From the NCBI RefSeq assembly GCF_014048475.1, contig NZ_NWUS01000002.1:1-64000 (forward strand): DNA of 64,000 nt, read 5' to 3'. This stretch comes from Bombella favorum. GTDB lineage: Bacteria > Pseudomonadota > Alphaproteobacteria > Acetobacterales > Acetobacteraceae. The notes under the pieces are model-generated. The model searched no databases and was not told where the DNA came from. It saw only the letters and a list, made by a program, of their open reading frames with translations. A program made the translations under genes and the position numbers. Below, piece after piece: positions 45,892-53,288 of this stretch (position 1 is the first letter of the stretch; each line of letters starts with the position of its first letter).

Positions 45892-46833
45892 ATGACACGT
45901 TCCACCATCACCGGCATTGCATGTGGCGCCGCAGCTGGCGCCCTATGGGGACTGTCCCTTCTTGCCCCAGAACTGATCAGCCCCTTTGCTCCCCTGCAAC
46001 TGGCCTCTGTTCGATTTGTCACCTATGGGGTCATCGCCCTGTTACTGCTTGCTCCCCGGCTGAAGAAAATCCTACCCCATCTTGGCGCTGCCGAATGGTG
46101 GGGGCTGCTAGGGCTTAGCCTGATGGGCAACATCATCTATTACAGCCTGCTTAGTGCGGCAGTTCAACTTTGCGGTGTGGCGATGCCCTCCCTGATCGTA
46201 GGCTTTATCCCTGTGACGGTCACAGTCGTGGGGGCTTTGCGACATGATTCAACGGTGCGTCTCCGCCGACTTGCGCCATCCATGTTGCTAAGTGCCGGTG
46301 GGATTGTCTGTATTGCGTGGCAGAACTTCCATAATGCTGACCATTCACAACATCACAGTAGCCTGCTCCTGCAGGTCGCCGGCCTCATCATGGCCGCCTG
46401 TGCCCTACTGAGCTGGACAGGATTTGTTGTCAAGAACGCCAACTGGTTAAGACGGCTGGAGCATCTCTCCAACAATGATTGGAACCTATTGACCGGCCTT
46501 GTTACCGGTGGGCTAGCCCTACTGATGCTACCTCTGGCCTTCCTACTACCCCAGCATCTGCCTGCCACAGGCTGGGCGCATTTCCTCATGATTGCCTGCG
46601 GGATCGGCCTGATGGCCTCGGTCGTTGCTAATGCGTTCTGGAACACCATGACACGCCTCCTGCCGCTGACAATGGTCGGACAGATGATCCTGTTCGAAAC
46701 GCTCTTTTCCCTGTTCTATGGCTTCCTATGGGAACAACGTTTCCCCACCTTGCTAGAAGGCTGCGCCATTGCTCTGGCTATTAGCGGTGTTATCTCCTGC
46801 GTCAAGGCTCACGGCCCAGCAAAGCACAGCTGA
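45892..46833 (+). CDS. DMT-superfamily (EamA) transporter, copy 1
   Basis: Inner-membrane protein of the drug/metabolite transporter superfamily with about ten helices in two EamA repeats; substrate unknown. ACGAAAGALWGLSLLAPELI opens the first repeat, and SALLS-like boundaries separate the halves; NAFWNTMTRLLPLTMVGQM and LFETLFSLFYGFLWEQR close it. It is strongly similar along its whole length to the next gene (46918-47871), for example MTRSTITG/MTRSILIG, GVAMPSLIVGFIPVTVT/GVAMPSLIIGFIPVTVT and GQMILFETLFSL in both, so the two arose by tandem duplication. The pair lies on the opposite strand between dnaG and yqeY, splitting a common alphaproteobacterial neighbourhood. 313 residues. Confidence 0.9.
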   Translation: MTRSTITGIACGAAAGALWGLSLLAPELISPFAPLQLASVRFVTYGVIALLLLAPRLKKILPHLGAAEWWGLLGLSLMGNIIYYSLLSAAVQLCGVAMPSLIVGFIPVTVTVVGALRHDSTVRLRRLAPSMLLSAGGIVCIAWQNFHNADHSQHHSSLLLQVAGLIMAACALLSWTGFVVKNANWLRRLEHLSNNDWNLLTGLVTGGLALLMLPLAFLLPQHLPATGWAHFLMIACGIGLMASVVANAFWNTMTRLLPLTMVGQMILFETLFSLFYGFLWEQRFPTLLEGCAIALAISGVISCVKAHGPAKHS

Positions 46834-46847
46834 ACCAGCCCTCCCCC

Positions 46848-46876
46848 TTGACGAGAGACGTTTTACCGACAACACA
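46848..46876 (+). promoter_or_regulatory. candidate promoter of the second EamA transporter
   Basis: TTGACG, 17 bases, AACACA, the same arrangement and sequence boxes as before the first copy; CCCCTTGACGA is common to both. Confidence 0.35.
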
Positions 46877-46917
46877 GGCCATGATCATATAAATTAACAA
46901 CCAAAAAACGAGCCTGC

Positions 46918-47871
46918 ATGACACGGTCCATCCTTATTGGCACCGCTTATGGTGCCATGGCGGGAGCTTTCTGGGGTATTACCTTCCTTGCCCCGGAGCT
47001 TGTCGCTCCCTTCACGCCTTTTCAGCTTGCAACACTACGCTATCTGACCTTCGGGGTCGTCTCCCTACTCATCCTTCTTCCCCGATTGAAGACGCTACTG
47101 CCACGCATCTCCTTCAAGGCGTTCCGAGCCCTTGTGCTGCTCGCCATACTAGGTAGCGTGGGCTATTATAGCATGATGGGTGTTGCCATCCAGCTAAGCG
47201 GCGTGGCCATGCCATCCCTCATCATCGGCTTTATCCCCGTCACAGTGACACTAGCCGGTATCTGCCGCCATAATGCGGTCGTCACGCTACGTCAGCTCAT
47301 CCCGTCCATCCTGCTCAGCACGGCAGGTATTCTCTGCATCTCATGGCAGAACTTCTTCGTTGGCTCCGCCCTGCACCATACTGGTCCCCTCCTACAGGCA
47401 GTCGGCCTGCTGATGGCCATTGGCTCCCTGTTGGGCTGGACGCTCTTCAATGTCATCAATTCCGACTGGCTAAAGAAGCTGGACCATATCACAAGTGATG
47501 AATGGAACCTGCTGACAGGCGTCATGGCGGGTATCCTGTCTCTGGTCATTCTCCTGCCTGCCGCTTTTTTCTGGCCTGCCCATCTACCTACCACAGGGTG
47601 GACACGTTTCTTTCTCATTTCCTGCGGTGTGGGGCTGTTCTCCTCTACAATCGCTAATGCGTTCTGGAACCGCATGACCCATCTGCTACCTCTGACGATG
47701 GTCGGACAGATGATCCTGTTCGAGACGCTATTTTCACTGATCTATGGTTTCCTCTGGGAACAGCGCCTACCCACCATCTGGGAAGCTGCCGCCTTCCTGC
47801 TTTCTGTCAGCGGGGTGCTGGCCTGTGTCCGTGCCCATAAGAATAGCGAAGCCTCACACTCCTATCACTGA
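46918..47871 (+). CDS. DMT-superfamily (EamA) transporter, copy 2
   Basis: Paralogue of the preceding transporter with the same ten-helix, two-repeat plan; 317 residues. YGAMAGAFWGITFLAPELV, RYLTFGVVSLLILLPRLKTLL, GVAMPSLIIGFIPVTVT, LIPSILLSTAGILCISWQNFF and NRMTHLLPLTMVGQM line up with copy 1. The copies differ most in the middle loops, so they may have different substrates. It has its own upstream sequence of 84 bases and is followed immediately by a strong terminator shared with the convergent yqeY. Confidence 0.9.
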   Translation: MTRSILIGTAYGAMAGAFWGITFLAPELVAPFTPFQLATLRYLTFGVVSLLILLPRLKTLLPRISFKAFRALVLLAILGSVGYYSMMGVAIQLSGVAMPSLIIGFIPVTVTLAGICRHNAVVTLRQLIPSILLSTAGILCISWQNFFVGSALHHTGPLLQAVGLLMAIGSLLGWTLFNVINSDWLKKLDHITSDEWNLLTGVMAGILSLVILLPAAFFWPAHLPTTGWTRFFLISCGVGLFSSTIANAFWNRMTHLLPLTMVGQMILFETLFSLIYGFLWEQRLPTIWEAAAFLLSVSGVLACVRAHKNSEASHSYH

Positions 47872-47941: not shown

Positions 47942-48394
47942 TCAGCTAAGGTGAGCCTTAACAAGACCACTGGCCCGACCAGCATCCAAAGCCGCACCGA
48001 AACGTCCCTTCAGCACGCCCATCACCTTACCCATGTCCTTCATGCCTTCTGCGCCTGTTTCCTTCACAGCCTCGGCGATAGCTTCCTTAAGGGCTTCCTC
48101 GGAGAGTTCAGCCGGAAGATAGGCACGGATGGTCTCAATCTCTGCCTCTTCCTTAGCGGCCAGCTCGGGGCGGTTGCCCTGATGGTACATGGCCGCAGAC
48201 TCCGTGCGGGTCTTGATCATGGAGCGCAAAGCCAGAAGGATATCATCCTCGCTCACCTCACCGCTCTTAGCACGGGCGGCAACATCAAGGTCCTTAATCT
48301 TGGCAGAAATGGCACGAATCTGCGCCACACGGTCAGACTGACCGGCCTTCATGGCGGCCTTGAGATCATCCATGATACGGGTACGGAGCGACAT
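47942..48394 (-). CDS. GatB/YqeY domain protein
   Basis: Small all-helical protein of the YqeY family, similar to the tail domain of the amidotransferase subunit GatB; its role is not established, possibly in tRNA-linked processes. MSLRTRIMDDLKAAMKAGQ, RVAQIRAISAKIKDLD, DDILLALRSMIKTRTESA, EEAEIETIRAYLPAELSEE and GAEGMKDMGKVMGVLKGRF are family blocks. 150 residues, full length. GAGAGG is upstream of the ATG. It diverges from carA; yqeY beside carA and dnaG is a common alphaproteobacterial arrangement. Confidence 0.93.
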   Translation of the reverse strand: MSLRTRIMDDLKAAMKAGQSDRVAQIRAISAKIKDLDVAARAKSGEVSEDDILLALRSMIKTRTESAAMYHQGNRPELAAKEEAEIETIRAYLPAELSEEALKEAIAEAVKETGAEGMKDMGKVMGVLKGRFGAALDAGRASGLVKAHLS

Positions 48395-48504
48395 GTTGGT
48401 CCTCTCTTAATTATAGGTTTATAATCTCTATATGGGAGCGTAAGAGGTATCAGCACAGTTCCCTCCTGTCGATAAGGGCCATTTTCATGGGTGGACTATC
48501 CATA

Positions 48505-48521
48505 TGGGAAGAAATTTCCCA
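48505..48521. promoter_or_regulatory. inverted repeat upstream of carA, site 1
   Basis: TGGGAA, five bases, TTCCCA, preceded by CATA. Identical in arms and spacing to the site at 48555-48571, centre to centre exactly 50 bp. A lone half-site ATATGGGA occurs at 48430-48437 on the yqeY side. Confidence 0.65.
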
Positions 48522-48554: not shown

Positions 48555-48571
48555 TGGGAAAAAACTTCCCA
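48555..48571. promoter_or_regulatory. inverted repeat upstream of carA, site 2
   Basis: TGGGAA, five bases, TTCCCA, again preceded by CATA; 80 bases before the ATG of the helix-turn-helix segment. Likely a dimeric regulator site given the repeated format. Confidence 0.65.
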
Positions 48572-48650
48572 TTAAACCCTTGCTGCTTTATGAAGATAAA
48601 AGCCTGAACAGACGGAAAACAGACAGGGCGTGGAGCGGAGCAACAGACGC

Positions 48651-50030
48651 ATGAACATCGATTCACTAATCAGGAAAGCGGGCGGTGCGGCTGAAATCGC
48701 CCAGCTGACCGGGGTCACGACCGAAGCCGTGCGCAAATGGCGTCAGGCTGGTATGGTACCCACTAAACACTGGCCTGCCCTGCTTCACGTGCCGGGAATC
48801 ACCCTGGCCGACCTGAACGAGACGTCAGAGGAGACATCTGCCATGACCCACCCTACAGATGACATGCCCCCCAAAGGCGCAACAGCCGTCCTCGTGCTGG
48901 CGGATGGTACCCACTTCTGGGGCCGTGGTTTTGGTGCCTTCAATGAAGGTGCCGTGGGTGAACTCTGCTTCTCCACCGGCATGACAGGTTATCAGGAAAC
49001 ACTGACAGACCCCTCCTTCGCCGGGCAGATCATCACCTTTACTTTCCCCCACATCGGCAACGTCGGCACCAACGGTGATGATGACGAAGCCCCTACAATG
49101 GCCGCCCTCGGCCTCGTGGTGAAAGAGGATGTCACCGCCCCGGCCAACTGGCGGTCCGTCCAGCCACTTCAAGACTGGTTGAAAGCCCATAAGCGGGCTG
49201 GCATCAGCGGTGTGGACACACGCGGTATCACCCGCTTGCTGCGGGACAAAGGGCCGCAGAACGCTCTGCTCTTCTACCCTAAAGATGGCCGTTTCGATCT
49301 CGCCGCCCTGCGCAAAAAAGCCGCAGAATGGCCCGGTCTGGAAGGGATGGACCTCGTCAAAGAAGTTGCTCAGCCCGCCCGTAACTGGACGAAAACCACA
49401 TGGCACAACACCCGCCCCGAGCGGGCTGTGAAACGCCGTGTCGTGGCTCTGGATTACGGAGCAAAGGATAACATCCTCCGTAGCCTCGTTGCCGCTGGTT
49501 GTGAGGTGCATGTCCTCCCCGGCACCGCCACAGGGGAAGAAATCCTCGCCCTGAAGCCGGAAGGCGTCTTCCTCTCCAACGGTCCAGCAGACCCTGCCGC
49601 TACGGCTGTCTATGCTGTCCCGGCCATTCAGGCCGTCATGGAAGCAGACATCCCTGTCTTCGGCATCTGCCTCGGCCATCAGCTTCTGGCCCGGGCACTG
49701 GGGGGCACGACCTACAAGCTGGACCGTGGCCATCGTGGTGCCAACCAGCCGGTGAAGGACCTCACGACAGGCCGGGTGGAAATCACCAGCCAGAATCACG
49801 GTTTCGCCGTGGATGAGAAGTCCCTGCCCGATACCGTCAAAGTGACACATGTCAGCCTGTTTGACGGCTCTAATGAAGGGCTTGCCTCCACCGTGAAGGA
49901 GGCCTTCTCCGTTCAGTATCACCCGGAAGCCAGCCCCGGCCCGACCGATAGTTTCTACCTCTTCGAGCGGTTTGTTGCCGTCATGGACCGCCGCGCCGAG
50001 GCCCGCACAACCAGCAAGGCAGGAGCCTGA
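48651..50030 (+). CDS. carA: carbamoyl-phosphate synthase small subunit with N-terminal HTH segment
   Basis: Glutamine amidotransferase subunit supplying ammonia to CarB for arginine and pyrimidine synthesis. From residue 65 on it is a normal CarA (about 395 residues): ATAVLVLADGTHFWGRG, FSTGMTGYQETLTDPSF, FPHIGNVGTN, GISGVDTRGITRLLRDKG, the nucleophile region VFGICLGHQLLARALGG, NHGFAVDE and YHPEASPGPTDS. The first 64 codons from ATG 48651 encode something else: GGAAEIAQLTGVTTEAVRKW is a Cro/YdaS-like helix-turn-helix, with VPTKHWPALLHVPGI after it. No stop separates them. A Shine-Dalgarno AGAGGAG nine bases before the in-frame ATG at 48843 suggests CarA alone is also made. I recall an NCBI family name 'carph-isopro' for such short domains in alphaproteobacteria, not checked. 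A GTG at 48630 is a further possible start. Confidence 0.9.
   Translation: MNIDSLIRKAGGAAEIAQLTGVTTEAVRKWRQAGMVPTKHWPALLHVPGITLADLNETSEETSAMTHPTDDMPPKGATAVLVLADGTHFWGRGFGAFNEGAVGELCFSTGMTGYQETLTDPSFAGQIITFTFPHIGNVGTNGDDDEAPTMAALGLVVKEDVTAPANWRSVQPLQDWLKAHKRAGISGVDTRGITRLLRDKGPQNALLFYPKDGRFDLAALRKKAAEWPGLEGMDLVKEVAQPARNWTKTTWHNTRPERAVKRRVVALDYGAKDNILRSLVAAGCEVHVLPGTATGEEILALKPEGVFLSNGPADPAATAVYAVPAIQAVMEADIPVFGICLGHQLLARALGGTTYKLDRGHRGANQPVKDLTTGRVEITSQNHGFAVDEKSLPDTVKVTHVSLFDGSNEGLASTVKEAFSVQYHPEASPGPTDSFYLFERFVAVMDRRAEARTTSKAGA
48827..48845 (+). promoter_or_regulatory. internal ribosome binding site and start for HTH-less CarA
   Basis: AGAGGAG at 48827-48833, nine bases, then ATG at 48843, in frame with the longer product and exactly where ordinary CarA proteins begin. 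It is a better site than that before the ATG at 48651 (GGAG ten bases upstream). Confidence 0.65.
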
Positions 50031-50033
50031 ACC

Positions 50034-53000
50034 ATGCCCAAACGCACAGATATCCGCTCCATCCTCATCATCGGTGCTGGCCCCATCGTCATCGGGCAGG
50101 CCTGCGAGTTCGACTATTCCGGTGCACAGGCCTGTAAGGCCCTGAAGGAAGAAGGCTACCGGGTCATCCTTCTGAACTCCAACCCGGCCACCATCATGAC
50201 CGACCCCGGTCTGGCCGATGCGACATACATCGAGCCCATCACGCCGGAATTTGTCGAGCGCATCATCCTCAAGGAAAAGCCCGACGCCGTCCTGCCGACC
50301 ATGGGGGGCCAGACAGCCCTGAACGCCGCCATGGCATTGGATAAGTCCGGCTTCCTCAAAAAGCACGGCGTGGAGCTGATCGGCGCACGTGCTGACGTGA
50401 TCGACCGTGCCGAGGACCGCCTGAAGTTCCGTGAAGCGATGGATGCCATCGGTGTGGAAAGCCCCCGCAGTGCCATCGCCCATACGCTGGACGAGGCCCG
50501 CACGGCTCTGGAACATATCGGCCTCCCCGCCATCATCCGTCCTTCCTTCACCATGGGCGGCTCTGGCGGCGGTATTGCCTATAATCGGGAAGAATTCTCC
50601 CAGATTGTTGCCAGCGGTCTGGATGCCTCCCCCACCACCGAGGTGCTCATCGAAGAATCCGTTATCGGCTGGAAAGAGTACGAGATGGAAGTGGTCCGTG
50701 ACGTGGCGGATAACTGCATCATCGTCTGCTCCATCGAGAATATCGACCCGATGGGCGTCCATACCGGGGATTCCATCACCGTAGCCCCGGCCATGACGCT
50801 GACAGACAAAGAATATCAGCGGATGCGTGATGTCTCCATCGCCTGCCTACGGGCTATCGGCGTGGAGACGGGGGGCTCCAACGTGCAGTTCGGCGTGAAT
50901 CCGAAAGATGGCCGTATGGTCGTCATCGAGATGAACCCCCGTGTATCCCGCTCCTCCGCTCTGGCCTCCAAGGCCACTGGCTTCCCGATCGCCAAGATCG
51001 CTGCCAAGCTGGCCGTGGGCTACACGCTGGATGAGCTGACAAACGACATCACTGGCAATATTCCTGCTAGCTTCGAGCCGACCATTGATTATGTCGTCAC
51101 GAAGATTCCTCGCTTCACCTTCGAGAAATTCCCCAGTACACCGGCCCTGCTCTCCACCTCCATGAAATCCGTTGGTGAGGCCATGGCCGTGGGCCGCAGC
51201 TTCGCTGAATCCCTCCAGAAGGGCCTGCGCTCTATGGAAACCGGCCTGACGGGTCTGGACCCTGTGGAAGCCCCCGGTGATGGCTCCCCGGATGCCTACC
51301 GTGCCGCCCTCTCCGAGCCACGGCCGGAACGTATCCTCATGGCCGCACAAGCCTTCCGTGCTGGTCTGTCTCTGGAAGATATTCAGGAGGCTTGCCACTT
51401 CGAGCCGTGGTTCCTGCGTCAGCTGGAAGCTATCATCGCCACCGAGCGCGAGATCGAAGCGAACGGCCTGCCGGATGATGCCATCAGCCTGCGCCAGATC
51501 AAGGCGCAGGGCTTCTCCGACCAGCAGCTTGCCCGCCTGAGCGGTAAAAACGTGAAGGACGTTGTTGCCCTGCGCACGAAGCTGAATGTTGTGCCTGCCT
51601 ATCGCCGGATTGATACCTGTGCGGCTGAATTCTCATCCGACACGCCGTATCTGTACTCCACCTACGAAGGGGGCTTCGGCATCCCAGATTGTGAGAGCCG
51701 CCCGACAGATAAGAAAAAGGTCGTCATCCTCGGTGGTGGTCCCAACCGTATCGGTCAGGGTATCGAGTTCGACTATTGCTGCGTCCATGCCGCCTACGCC
51801 CTACGTGAAGCCGGTTTTGAGACCATCATGGTCAACTGTAACCCGGAAACAGTATCCACCGACTATGATACGTCCGACCGTCTCTATTTCGAGCCGCTAA
51901 CGGCTGAAGACGTCATCAGCCTTGTAAAGAAGGAAATGACGAACGGTACCGTTCTGGGCTGCATCGTGCAGTATGGTGGCCAGACCCCGCTTAAGCTCTC
52001 CCGTGCGCTGGAGGAAGCAGGCATCACCCTGCTGGGCACCCCGGCCGATGCCATCGACCGTGCCGAGGACCGGGAACGCTTCCAGGCCATGCTGCGCAAG
52101 CTGGGCCTGCGTCAGCCCCGCAACGGCATTGCCCGTAACCCAGATGAAGCTCTGAAGATTGCCGAAGAGGTTGGCTATCCGGTCGTGGCCCGTCCGTCCT
52201 ATGTGCTGGGTGGCCGTGCTATGGAGATCGTCTATGACAAGGCTGGCCTGTCCAACTATCTCAACACTGTTCTACGTGCGGCTGGTGAGGAAGTGGCAAC
52301 AGGGCCAGTCCTGCTGGACCACTACCTAAATGAGGCCATCGAAGCTGACGTAGACTGCATTGCCGATGGTCATGATGTCTATGTCGCCGGGGTGATGGAG
52401 CATATTGAGGAAGCCGGTATTCATTCCGGGGACTCTGCCTGCTCCCTGCCGCCTTACACGCTCTCCCCAGCTCTGGTGACTGAGCTAAAGGCGCAGACCG
52501 AAGCCATGGCCCGTGAACTGGGCATCCGTGGCCTGATGAACGTACAGTTTGCCATCAAGGATGACGAAGTGTTCGTTCTGGAGGTCAATCCCCGTGCCTC
52601 CCGTACGGTGCCGTTCGTAGCTAAGGCAACAGGTGTGCCGGTTGCCAAGATCGGTGCCCGCATCATGGCTGGTGCCAAACTGTCCGACTTCCCGCTAGAG
52701 GGCCGGTCTGTAGCCCCGCATGTGGCTGTTAAGGAAGCCGTCTTCCCCTTCAACCGCTTCTCTGGCGTTGATACGATCCTTGGGCCAGAAATGCGCTCCA
52801 CTGGTGAAGTAATGGGGCTGGATGCCAACTTCGAGATGGCCTTTGCTAAGTCCCAGCTAGCAGCAGGTGTGAAGCTCCCTCGGGAAGGCACCGTCTTCCT
52901 CTCCGTGCGGGAAAGCGATAAGGCCCATGTGCAGCCTCTAGCCCGCAAGCTAGTGGAAATGGGCTTCACCATCCTTGCTACTCGTGGCACGGCCGAACGG

Positions 53001-53288
53001 CTGAAGGAAGCCGGCATCCCTGTGACCCGTGTCAATAAGGTGCTGGAAGGTCGCCCGCATTGCGTGGATGCTATCCGCTCCAACGAGGTGCAGATGGTCA
53101 TCAACACAGCGCAGGGGGGACAGTCTGCTCGAGACAGCTTTGACATCCGCCGCTCTGCCCTGACGATGAACGTGCCGCATTACACGACCATCGCCGGTGC
53201 CCGGGCTGTTACCTATGCCATTTCTGTCCTGAAGCAGAAAGAACCGGATGTGGCCCCGCTGCAATCCTATTTCCACGGTTCTTTCTGA
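50034..53288 (+). CDS. carB: carbamoyl-phosphate synthase large subunit
   Basis: Synthesises carbamoyl phosphate from bicarbonate, ATP and ammonia delivered by CarA. Two homologous ATP-grasp halves are visible. First half: [79 protein letters not shown]. Second half: [78 protein letters not shown]-terminal MGS-like allosteric domain ([14 protein letters not shown]...[10 protein letters not shown]) ends it. 1,084 residues, full length. Three bases after carA, so translationally coupled. Confidence 0.98.

Follow-up and report, generated by a model that had tools for sequence, protein, structure and literature searches.

We describe here a carA gene of Bombella favorum, which lies within the 64,000-nucleotide stretch of DNA that was analysed (the window) and whose features are collected in Table 1. 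The reading frame is free of stops from GTG 48630 or ATG 48651 to the stop codon at 50028-50030, with in-frame stops upstream at 48591 and 48597, and it joins a helix-turn-helix (HTH) domain, a linker, and the small subunit of carbamoyl-phosphate synthase, CarA, in a single chain. The initial annotation had placed the HTH and CarA in one frame with no stop between them, and this is borne out, with both parts scoring above their profile cut-offs. The first 64 codons (48651-48842) match the NCBIfam model NF046037, the "carph-isopro domain", at 67.4 bits against a cut-off of 38, the match spanning residues 3-56, and residues 79-446 match TIGR01368 at 426 bits (curated cut-off 307.35). Because the HTH match begins at residue 3 of the reading from ATG 48651, this codon looks the better candidate for the long start than GTG 48630. 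Three residues that we take to be the amidotransferase Cys, His, and Glu (C340, H424, and E426) are invariant in 35 aligned HTH-CarA fusions. HTH-CarA is the single CarA above the TIGR01368 cut-off in this genome, a search that found no second, HTH-free CarA. The carB gene begins 3 nt past the carA stop and is predicted to share an operon with carA. Beyond the divergent yqeY gene, two EamA-like transporter genes of 313 and 317 residues lie in tandem at 45892-47871, an apparent duplication.

Table 1. Features of the HTH-carA locus, by position in the window.
Feature	Position	Strand	Remark
YqeY-like protein gene, divergent neighbour, outside the system	47942..48394	-	Pfam YqeY 142.6 bits
Distal operator TGGGAAGAAATTTCCCA	48505..48521		exact; one of two in the genome
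Proximal operator TGGGAAAAAACTTCCCA	48555..48571		exact; right arm TTCCCA (48566-48571) predicted to double as -35 box
Predicted -10 box (TATGAA), separated from the proximal operator by exactly 17 bp	48589..48594	+	TA at +17 in 24/45 loci of this type
HTH-CarA, long form, 459 aa: Cro-like HTH, linker, and carbamoyl-phosphate synthase small subunit	48651..50030	+	
Cro-like HTH domain, residues 1-56, recognition helix TEAVRKWRQ	48651..48818	+	NF046037 67.4 bits; AlphaFold2; nearest solved structures are Cro
Linker, residues 57-78	48819..48884	+	AlphaFold2 pLDDT <50 within it
AGAGGAG, Shine-Dalgarno of the internal CarA start	48827..48833	+	duplex energy -9.0
Predicted short form without HTH, CarA from ATG 48843	48843..50030	+	putative product
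carB, carbamoyl-phosphate synthase large subunit	50034..53288	+	TIGR01369 1470 bits, cut-off 1027

The HTH had been likened to both Cro and YdaS, and it is the Cro part of this description that holds. A PDB profile search with the domain returns the Cro proteins 5w8y, 3bd1, and 2hin (E 0.0006-0.0013), and an AlphaFold2 model built as a single chain from 30 alignment rows has five helices at a mean pLDDT of 88, with Xfaso1 Cro (3bd1) as its nearest Foldseek match (probability 1.00, TM 0.74, best E a weak 0.013). The fold is thus nearer to phage Cro, and membership of the YdaS toxins is ruled out by a score of 27.3 bits to YdaS_toxin (PF15943), under its gathering cut-off of 30; P22_Cro (PF14549) also falls short, at 21.9 bits against 30.2. 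In a single-chain model of the full HTH-CarA (mean pLDDT 78), linker residues 58-68 are under pLDDT 50. Within the recognition helix, 25 diverse members all share E25, A26, R28, K29, and W30, and a rare K appears at R28 and R31 over all of the 147 fused loci considered below. Over 59 residues the HTH of the window and the one of Bombella intestini do not differ. Across 12 pairs of relatives the HTH codons have dN values of 0-0.075 against dS values of 0.075-0.80; by this comparison they are under purifying selection, and hence the HTH is made, and selected for, as a protein.

The fusion is not peculiar to the window, and the comparison of relatives that had been proposed for the N-terminal extension finds it throughout the Acetobacteraceae. 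NF046037 scores above its cut-off in 189 of the 200 genomes sampled from this family, and among 150 loci examined the HTH is recognised by a profile of our own in 149 and CarA follows in the HTH frame in 147. Named loci, of which 80 were kept of 345, are fused in 78 cases (Bombella, Saccharibacter, Gluconobacter, Asaia, Acetobacter, Komagataeibacter, Rhodopila, and others), and the 20 relatives in which CarA was found, of 26 chosen, have one CarA each. A stop between the two parts in close relatives had been named as evidence that would count against the fusion; such a break is seen at one of the 150 loci and in two Asaia drafts, the rest being without one. At the former (L157, genome G088) CarA lies in another frame than the HTH on a contig of 5.5 Mb, the break falling in the linker and representing either a sequencing error or a natural split, and in the drafts of Asaia prunellae and Asaia platycodi (L262 and L263) the frame is broken downstream of the HTH. 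The contig of L164 stops ahead of CarA. At L185 there is a weaker, additional HTH without CarA; its genome (G038) also has a fused copy. Chance read-through or a missed stop is ruled out by the 147 fused loci of 150 together with the purifying selection on the HTH. In a sample of the class, 58 of 289 genomes have NF046037 above cut-off, at least five of these being from Acetobacteraceae itself; no CarA was found in the HTH frame at 28 loci read outside the family, nor in any frame in 20 stretches around weaker NF046037 matches there. In a plasmid search with the whole protein, all of the 10 matches listed begin at residue 59 or later and so have no HTH.

Upstream of HTH-carA in the window are two copies of a 17-bp palindrome, CATATGGGAAGAAATTTCCCA and CATATGGGAAAAAACTTCCCA, and these are the only two occurrences of TGGGAA-N5-TTCCCA in the genome; one-mismatch versions elsewhere in it number seven, at the level of a reversed-pattern control (six). 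The best palindrome within 250 nt upstream has no mismatches in 92 of the 147 fused loci, one in 37, two in six, three in five, and four in seven, such that 129 loci have a site with at most one mismatch, whereas controls using reversed arms or a coding window give none of 147 at two mismatches or fewer, and single-base shuffles lead one to expect about 0.2 of 147 at one mismatch. No spacer length other than N5 stands out among these loci. At the one-mismatch threshold there are two sites in 68 loci, one in 61, and none in 18. The distance between paired sites is mostly 38-39 bp, and 50 bp in the genus of the window. The consensus of the chosen sites is TGGGAA-RWWWY-TTCCCA, in which the near-fixed arms are due in part to the selection of sites at one mismatch or fewer and the spacer bias is independent of it. 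Eight of the 18 loci without such a site have the variant CGGAA..TTCCG, and the others have weaker sites. For the named loci the search covered 200 nt and gave a site at 76 of 80.

The palindrome also tracks the HTH at the level of whole genomes. Exact copies are present in 126 of the 200 Acetobacteraceae genomes and in 19 of 192 genomes of the class sample, or 16 of 189 outside the family once three family members are removed. For 62 of the 75 exact sites listed the place of the HTH is known, and 56 of these are within 420 nt of it, with six elsewhere. In one Acetobacteraceae genome, G072, TGGGAANNNNNTTCCCA occurs exactly 11 times without mismatch, a number well above that in any other of the 200. 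The name of the HTH domain was known already; the palindrome upstream of HTH-carA, its placement in the promoter, and its tie to the HTH are new here.

The position of the operator suggests that it is built into the carA promoter, with two layouts to consider. Of the 129 loci that have a site, 86 show an in-frame start 9-16 nt (mostly 12-13) behind one, and at 69 of these TTG stands directly before the site and a -10 box with A as its second base directly after it, against a background for TTG of 0.009 per position. In the 53 loci whose site lies at -31 to -28, the three bases of TTG are present at 98, 92, and 94%, and the -10 A at 91%. For these loci we predict that the operator is itself the 17-bp spacer of the promoter, and that transcription would start at the initiation codon itself. 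In this leaderless type 67 of 68 representatives use ATG as the long start, and a Shine-Dalgarno sequence precedes it in 3% of them, as expected for leaderless genes, whereas the long start reaches Shine-Dalgarno energy in 45% of the other 44 representatives. We note that a preference for ATG at leaderless genes of G. oxydans is reported in PMC5756330, the main text of which has no occurrence of carA.

The remaining type, to which the window belongs, appears to use the same operator differently. Among the 45 loci, the window included, that fall to this type when a stricter start distance (11-14 nt) is applied, TA is found exactly 17 nt after the site in 24, with counts of 0 to 9 at the other offsets between 0 and 27. 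The right arm TTCCCA is thereby predicted to serve as the -35 box, although about half of the window-type loci do not fit this layout. Since in both layouts the one operator would cover contacts of the polymerase, its position argues for repression rather than activation.

The HTH and the operator also tend to vary together, and in one genus both are absent. In genus g30, represented by two genomes (G029 and G116, loci L076 and L077), an ordinary carA start follows GGAGAATT and there is no HTH at carA; the exact palindrome is found nowhere in either genome, and the best upstream matches have four and five mismatches, with both carA and the divergent yqeY kept. The CarA of this genus nests among fused CarA (SH-aLRT 90 in an 11-row set and 98 in a 20-row set), with a long branch and odd composition to be borne in mind for this placement. 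By this comparison HTH and operator have been lost together in g30. The single NF046037 match in G116 is an 82-codon frame beside phage-like genes and away from carA.

A further association is seen at the residue two positions after W30 (W+2). It is Q in 134 loci, with GGGAA-N5-TTCCC in 120 and CGGAA-N5-TTCCG in one, and it differs from Q in 13, with the GGGAA form in two and the CGGAA form in seven. Seven loci have S at this position, and six of them, drawn from three genera (L013, L014, L133, L177, L199, and L215), have CGGAA-N5-TTCCG, in CCGGAA- or GCGGAA-type operators that replace TGGGAA. Fisher tests of residue against operator form give 2e-8 and 5e-8 with kinship ignored. A tree of 146 loci implies six changes at this residue, four of the CGG form, and 16 losses of the GGG form. 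It has three well supported independent pairs, too few for significance. When the residue is set against the CGG form none of 200 pairings runs in the opposite direction; when it is set against loss of the GGG form, a few do. Altered recognition helices thus tend to go with altered operators in these alignments.

We consider it highly probable that HTH-CarA is a single-gene autorepressor enzyme of carA-carB, because the operator is placed in the predicted promoter, because HTH and operator were lost together, and because altered helices accompany altered operators. The Cro-type HTHs of two CarA chains would bind the palindrome TGGGAA-RWWWY-TTCCCA at the carA promoter, the bound protein would exclude RNA polymerase, and more HTH-CarA would therefore mean less transcription of carA-carB. 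A signal would presumably alter binding, and the state of assembly of CarA with CarB and its ligands seems the most likely one. In many lineages, that of the window included, an internal ATG led by a Shine-Dalgarno sequence probably yields HTH-free CarA as well, which would partly uncouple the supply of enzyme from the supply of repressor. The initial annotation had suggested that the enzyme senses its own pathway and controls its own promoter; comparison among relatives lends strong support to the control of the promoter, while binding to the operator, repression by binding, and the change of binding with a signal are steps that we infer.

What the sequences themselves show is the HTH joined to CarA, an operator positioned in the predicted promoter, and the link between operator and HTH; two other explanations of the palindrome have to be weighed against these. 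It could be the operator of another, unlinked regulator, acting for example on the divergent yqeY, with the HTH of CarA doing something else, such as making protein-protein contacts. The arrangement allows for this, in that yqeY is divergent from carA in 130 of the 145 relatives with enough upstream DNA, and the site therefore sits between two genes. However, at the 15 loci where no yqeY was detected the site is nonetheless present in 11, and genus g30 keeps yqeY with neither the HTH at carA nor the site; moreover, site variants tend to accompany recognition-helix variants, and the site forms an integral part of the carA promoter as predicted. We regard an unlinked regulator as quite improbable. 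A third, operator-type half-site, TCTATATGGGA, is seen at 48427-48437 near the yqeY start, and the regulator could touch yqeY too. The palindrome could instead act as RNA, as a hairpin in the carA leader that serves as an attenuator or translational switch; it is a perfect inverted repeat near the start codon, and in the CGGAA..TTCCG variant the two arms change in concert, which would also be the case for a hairpin. We give this very little credence, since in the leaderless type the site coincides with the predicted -35/-10 spacer and would lie outside the transcript, and in the window type it covers the predicted -35 box. The near-fixed consensus of the operator has no bearing on the hairpin, the sites having been preselected at one mismatch or fewer.

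Returning to the autorepressor enzyme, the proposal that one gene yields both HTH-CarA and plain CarA finds partial support, better in some lineages than in others. In the window the AGAGGAG ribosome site and in-frame ATG described ahead of CarA are both present, the ATG (48843-48845) lying 9 nt after the site, and AGAGGAG or CGAGGAG is found in all 10 rows of the window's own group (L221-L230). More widely, an in-frame linker ATG is present in 99 of 147 genes, and 76 of these 99 have an anti-Shine-Dalgarno energy of -4.5 or lower, compared with 6% for the remaining codons of those linkers; among 112 representatives the figures are 47 of 69 linker ATGs and again 6%. A linker ATG and a Shine-Dalgarno sequence are thus combined in 76 of 147 genes, about half, and 48 have no linker ATG. 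In those 48, GTG or TTG occurs in 19, with a Shine-Dalgarno sequence in 10, and 22% of codons reach Shine-Dalgarno energy, which represents a higher background. Gluconobacter linkers are without Met in 21 of 21 rows among the named loci, and the four inspected have a purine-rich run ahead of a GTG. The short HTH-free CarA is therefore a likely product in the genus of the window, and its occurrence elsewhere appears to depend on lineage.

The genes with no linker ATG, with the few GTG or TTG substitutes among them, and the Met-free linkers of Gluconobacter are also what might be expected if only the long HTH-CarA were made, and the linker ATG and its Shine-Dalgarno were an unused relic of an unfused carA start. 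We think this unlikely, given the excess of Shine-Dalgarno sequences at linker ATGs over other codons of the same linkers, and given that these sequences are varied and would hardly be retained by a relic. More tentatively, and with somewhat more doubt than confidence, we can envisage that the autorepressor gene constitutes a whole feedback controller of its pathway, in which a leaderless start free of a Shine-Dalgarno sequence would give HTH-CarA acting on the spacer of its own promoter, the internal start would give plain enzyme, the choice of start by ribosomes would set the ratio, and the presence of CarA in CarAB would govern binding, with assembly as the signal.

Carbamoyl-phosphate synthase stands at the junction of arginine and pyrimidine synthesis, and the Acetobacteraceae include members that are industrially used and insect-associated. 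PutA, BirA, and NadR are enzymes in which catalytic and DNA-binding parts share one polypeptide and act on promoters of their own pathway. HTH-CarA shares this plan, with an enzyme and a predicted DNA-binding domain in one chain and a conserved operator in its own predicted promoter, although those are other enzymes with other DNA-binding folds, and HTH-CarA adds an operator in the spacer of a leaderless promoter and an internal start, both predicted. We know of no carbamoyl-phosphate synthase among autoregulatory enzymes with a DNA-binding domain. Phage Cro repressors are small HTH proteins that bind palindromes as dimers, and although Xfaso1 Cro (3bd1), N15 Cro (2hin and 6on0), and P22 Cro (1rzs) are the closest solved sequences and folds, the HTH described here differs in being fused to a metabolic enzyme and in scoring above the domain cut-off in nearly all genomes sampled from a bacterial family (189 of 200).

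The carAB operon of E. coli offers an instructive comparison, as it is controlled by many separate regulators, and PMC6245113 describes regulation of its transcription by the trigger enzymes PepA and PyrH together with ArgR, PurR, and others. There is a likeness in that PepA and PyrH are metabolic enzymes that also regulate carAB (PMC6245113), but in E. coli these regulators are other enzymes, whereas in Acetobacteraceae it is CarA itself that has the HTH, with DNA binding predicted. The Acetobacteraceae enzyme thus seems to bear its regulator on its own chain and to have a defined operator, and it would offer a ready test of a promoter that reads the state of an enzyme, a compact natural feedback part, and, in the leaderless promoter with the operator as its spacer, a clean object of study. 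It would also give a function to a domain that NCBI merely names, the NF046037 model having, to our knowledge, no operator, promoter, target, or mechanism attached to it. In open-licence PMC papers we found no literature on an HTH-CarA and no use of the name "carph-isopro".

The same domain has other partners outside the Acetobacteraceae. The CarA operator was not found within two mismatches in up to 300 nt upstream of any of 28 Mitofilin-type loci, and these alphaproteobacterial Mitofilin-family proteins, which have NF046037 at the N-terminus in three of three scanned, differ from HTH-CarA in their recognition helix as well as in their partner. Four of five proteins scanned from outside the family (L035, L040, L047, and L059) combine the NF046037 HTH with a match to Pfam Mitofilin (PF09731), and these fusions possibly place a DNA-binding domain on a family of membrane proteins.
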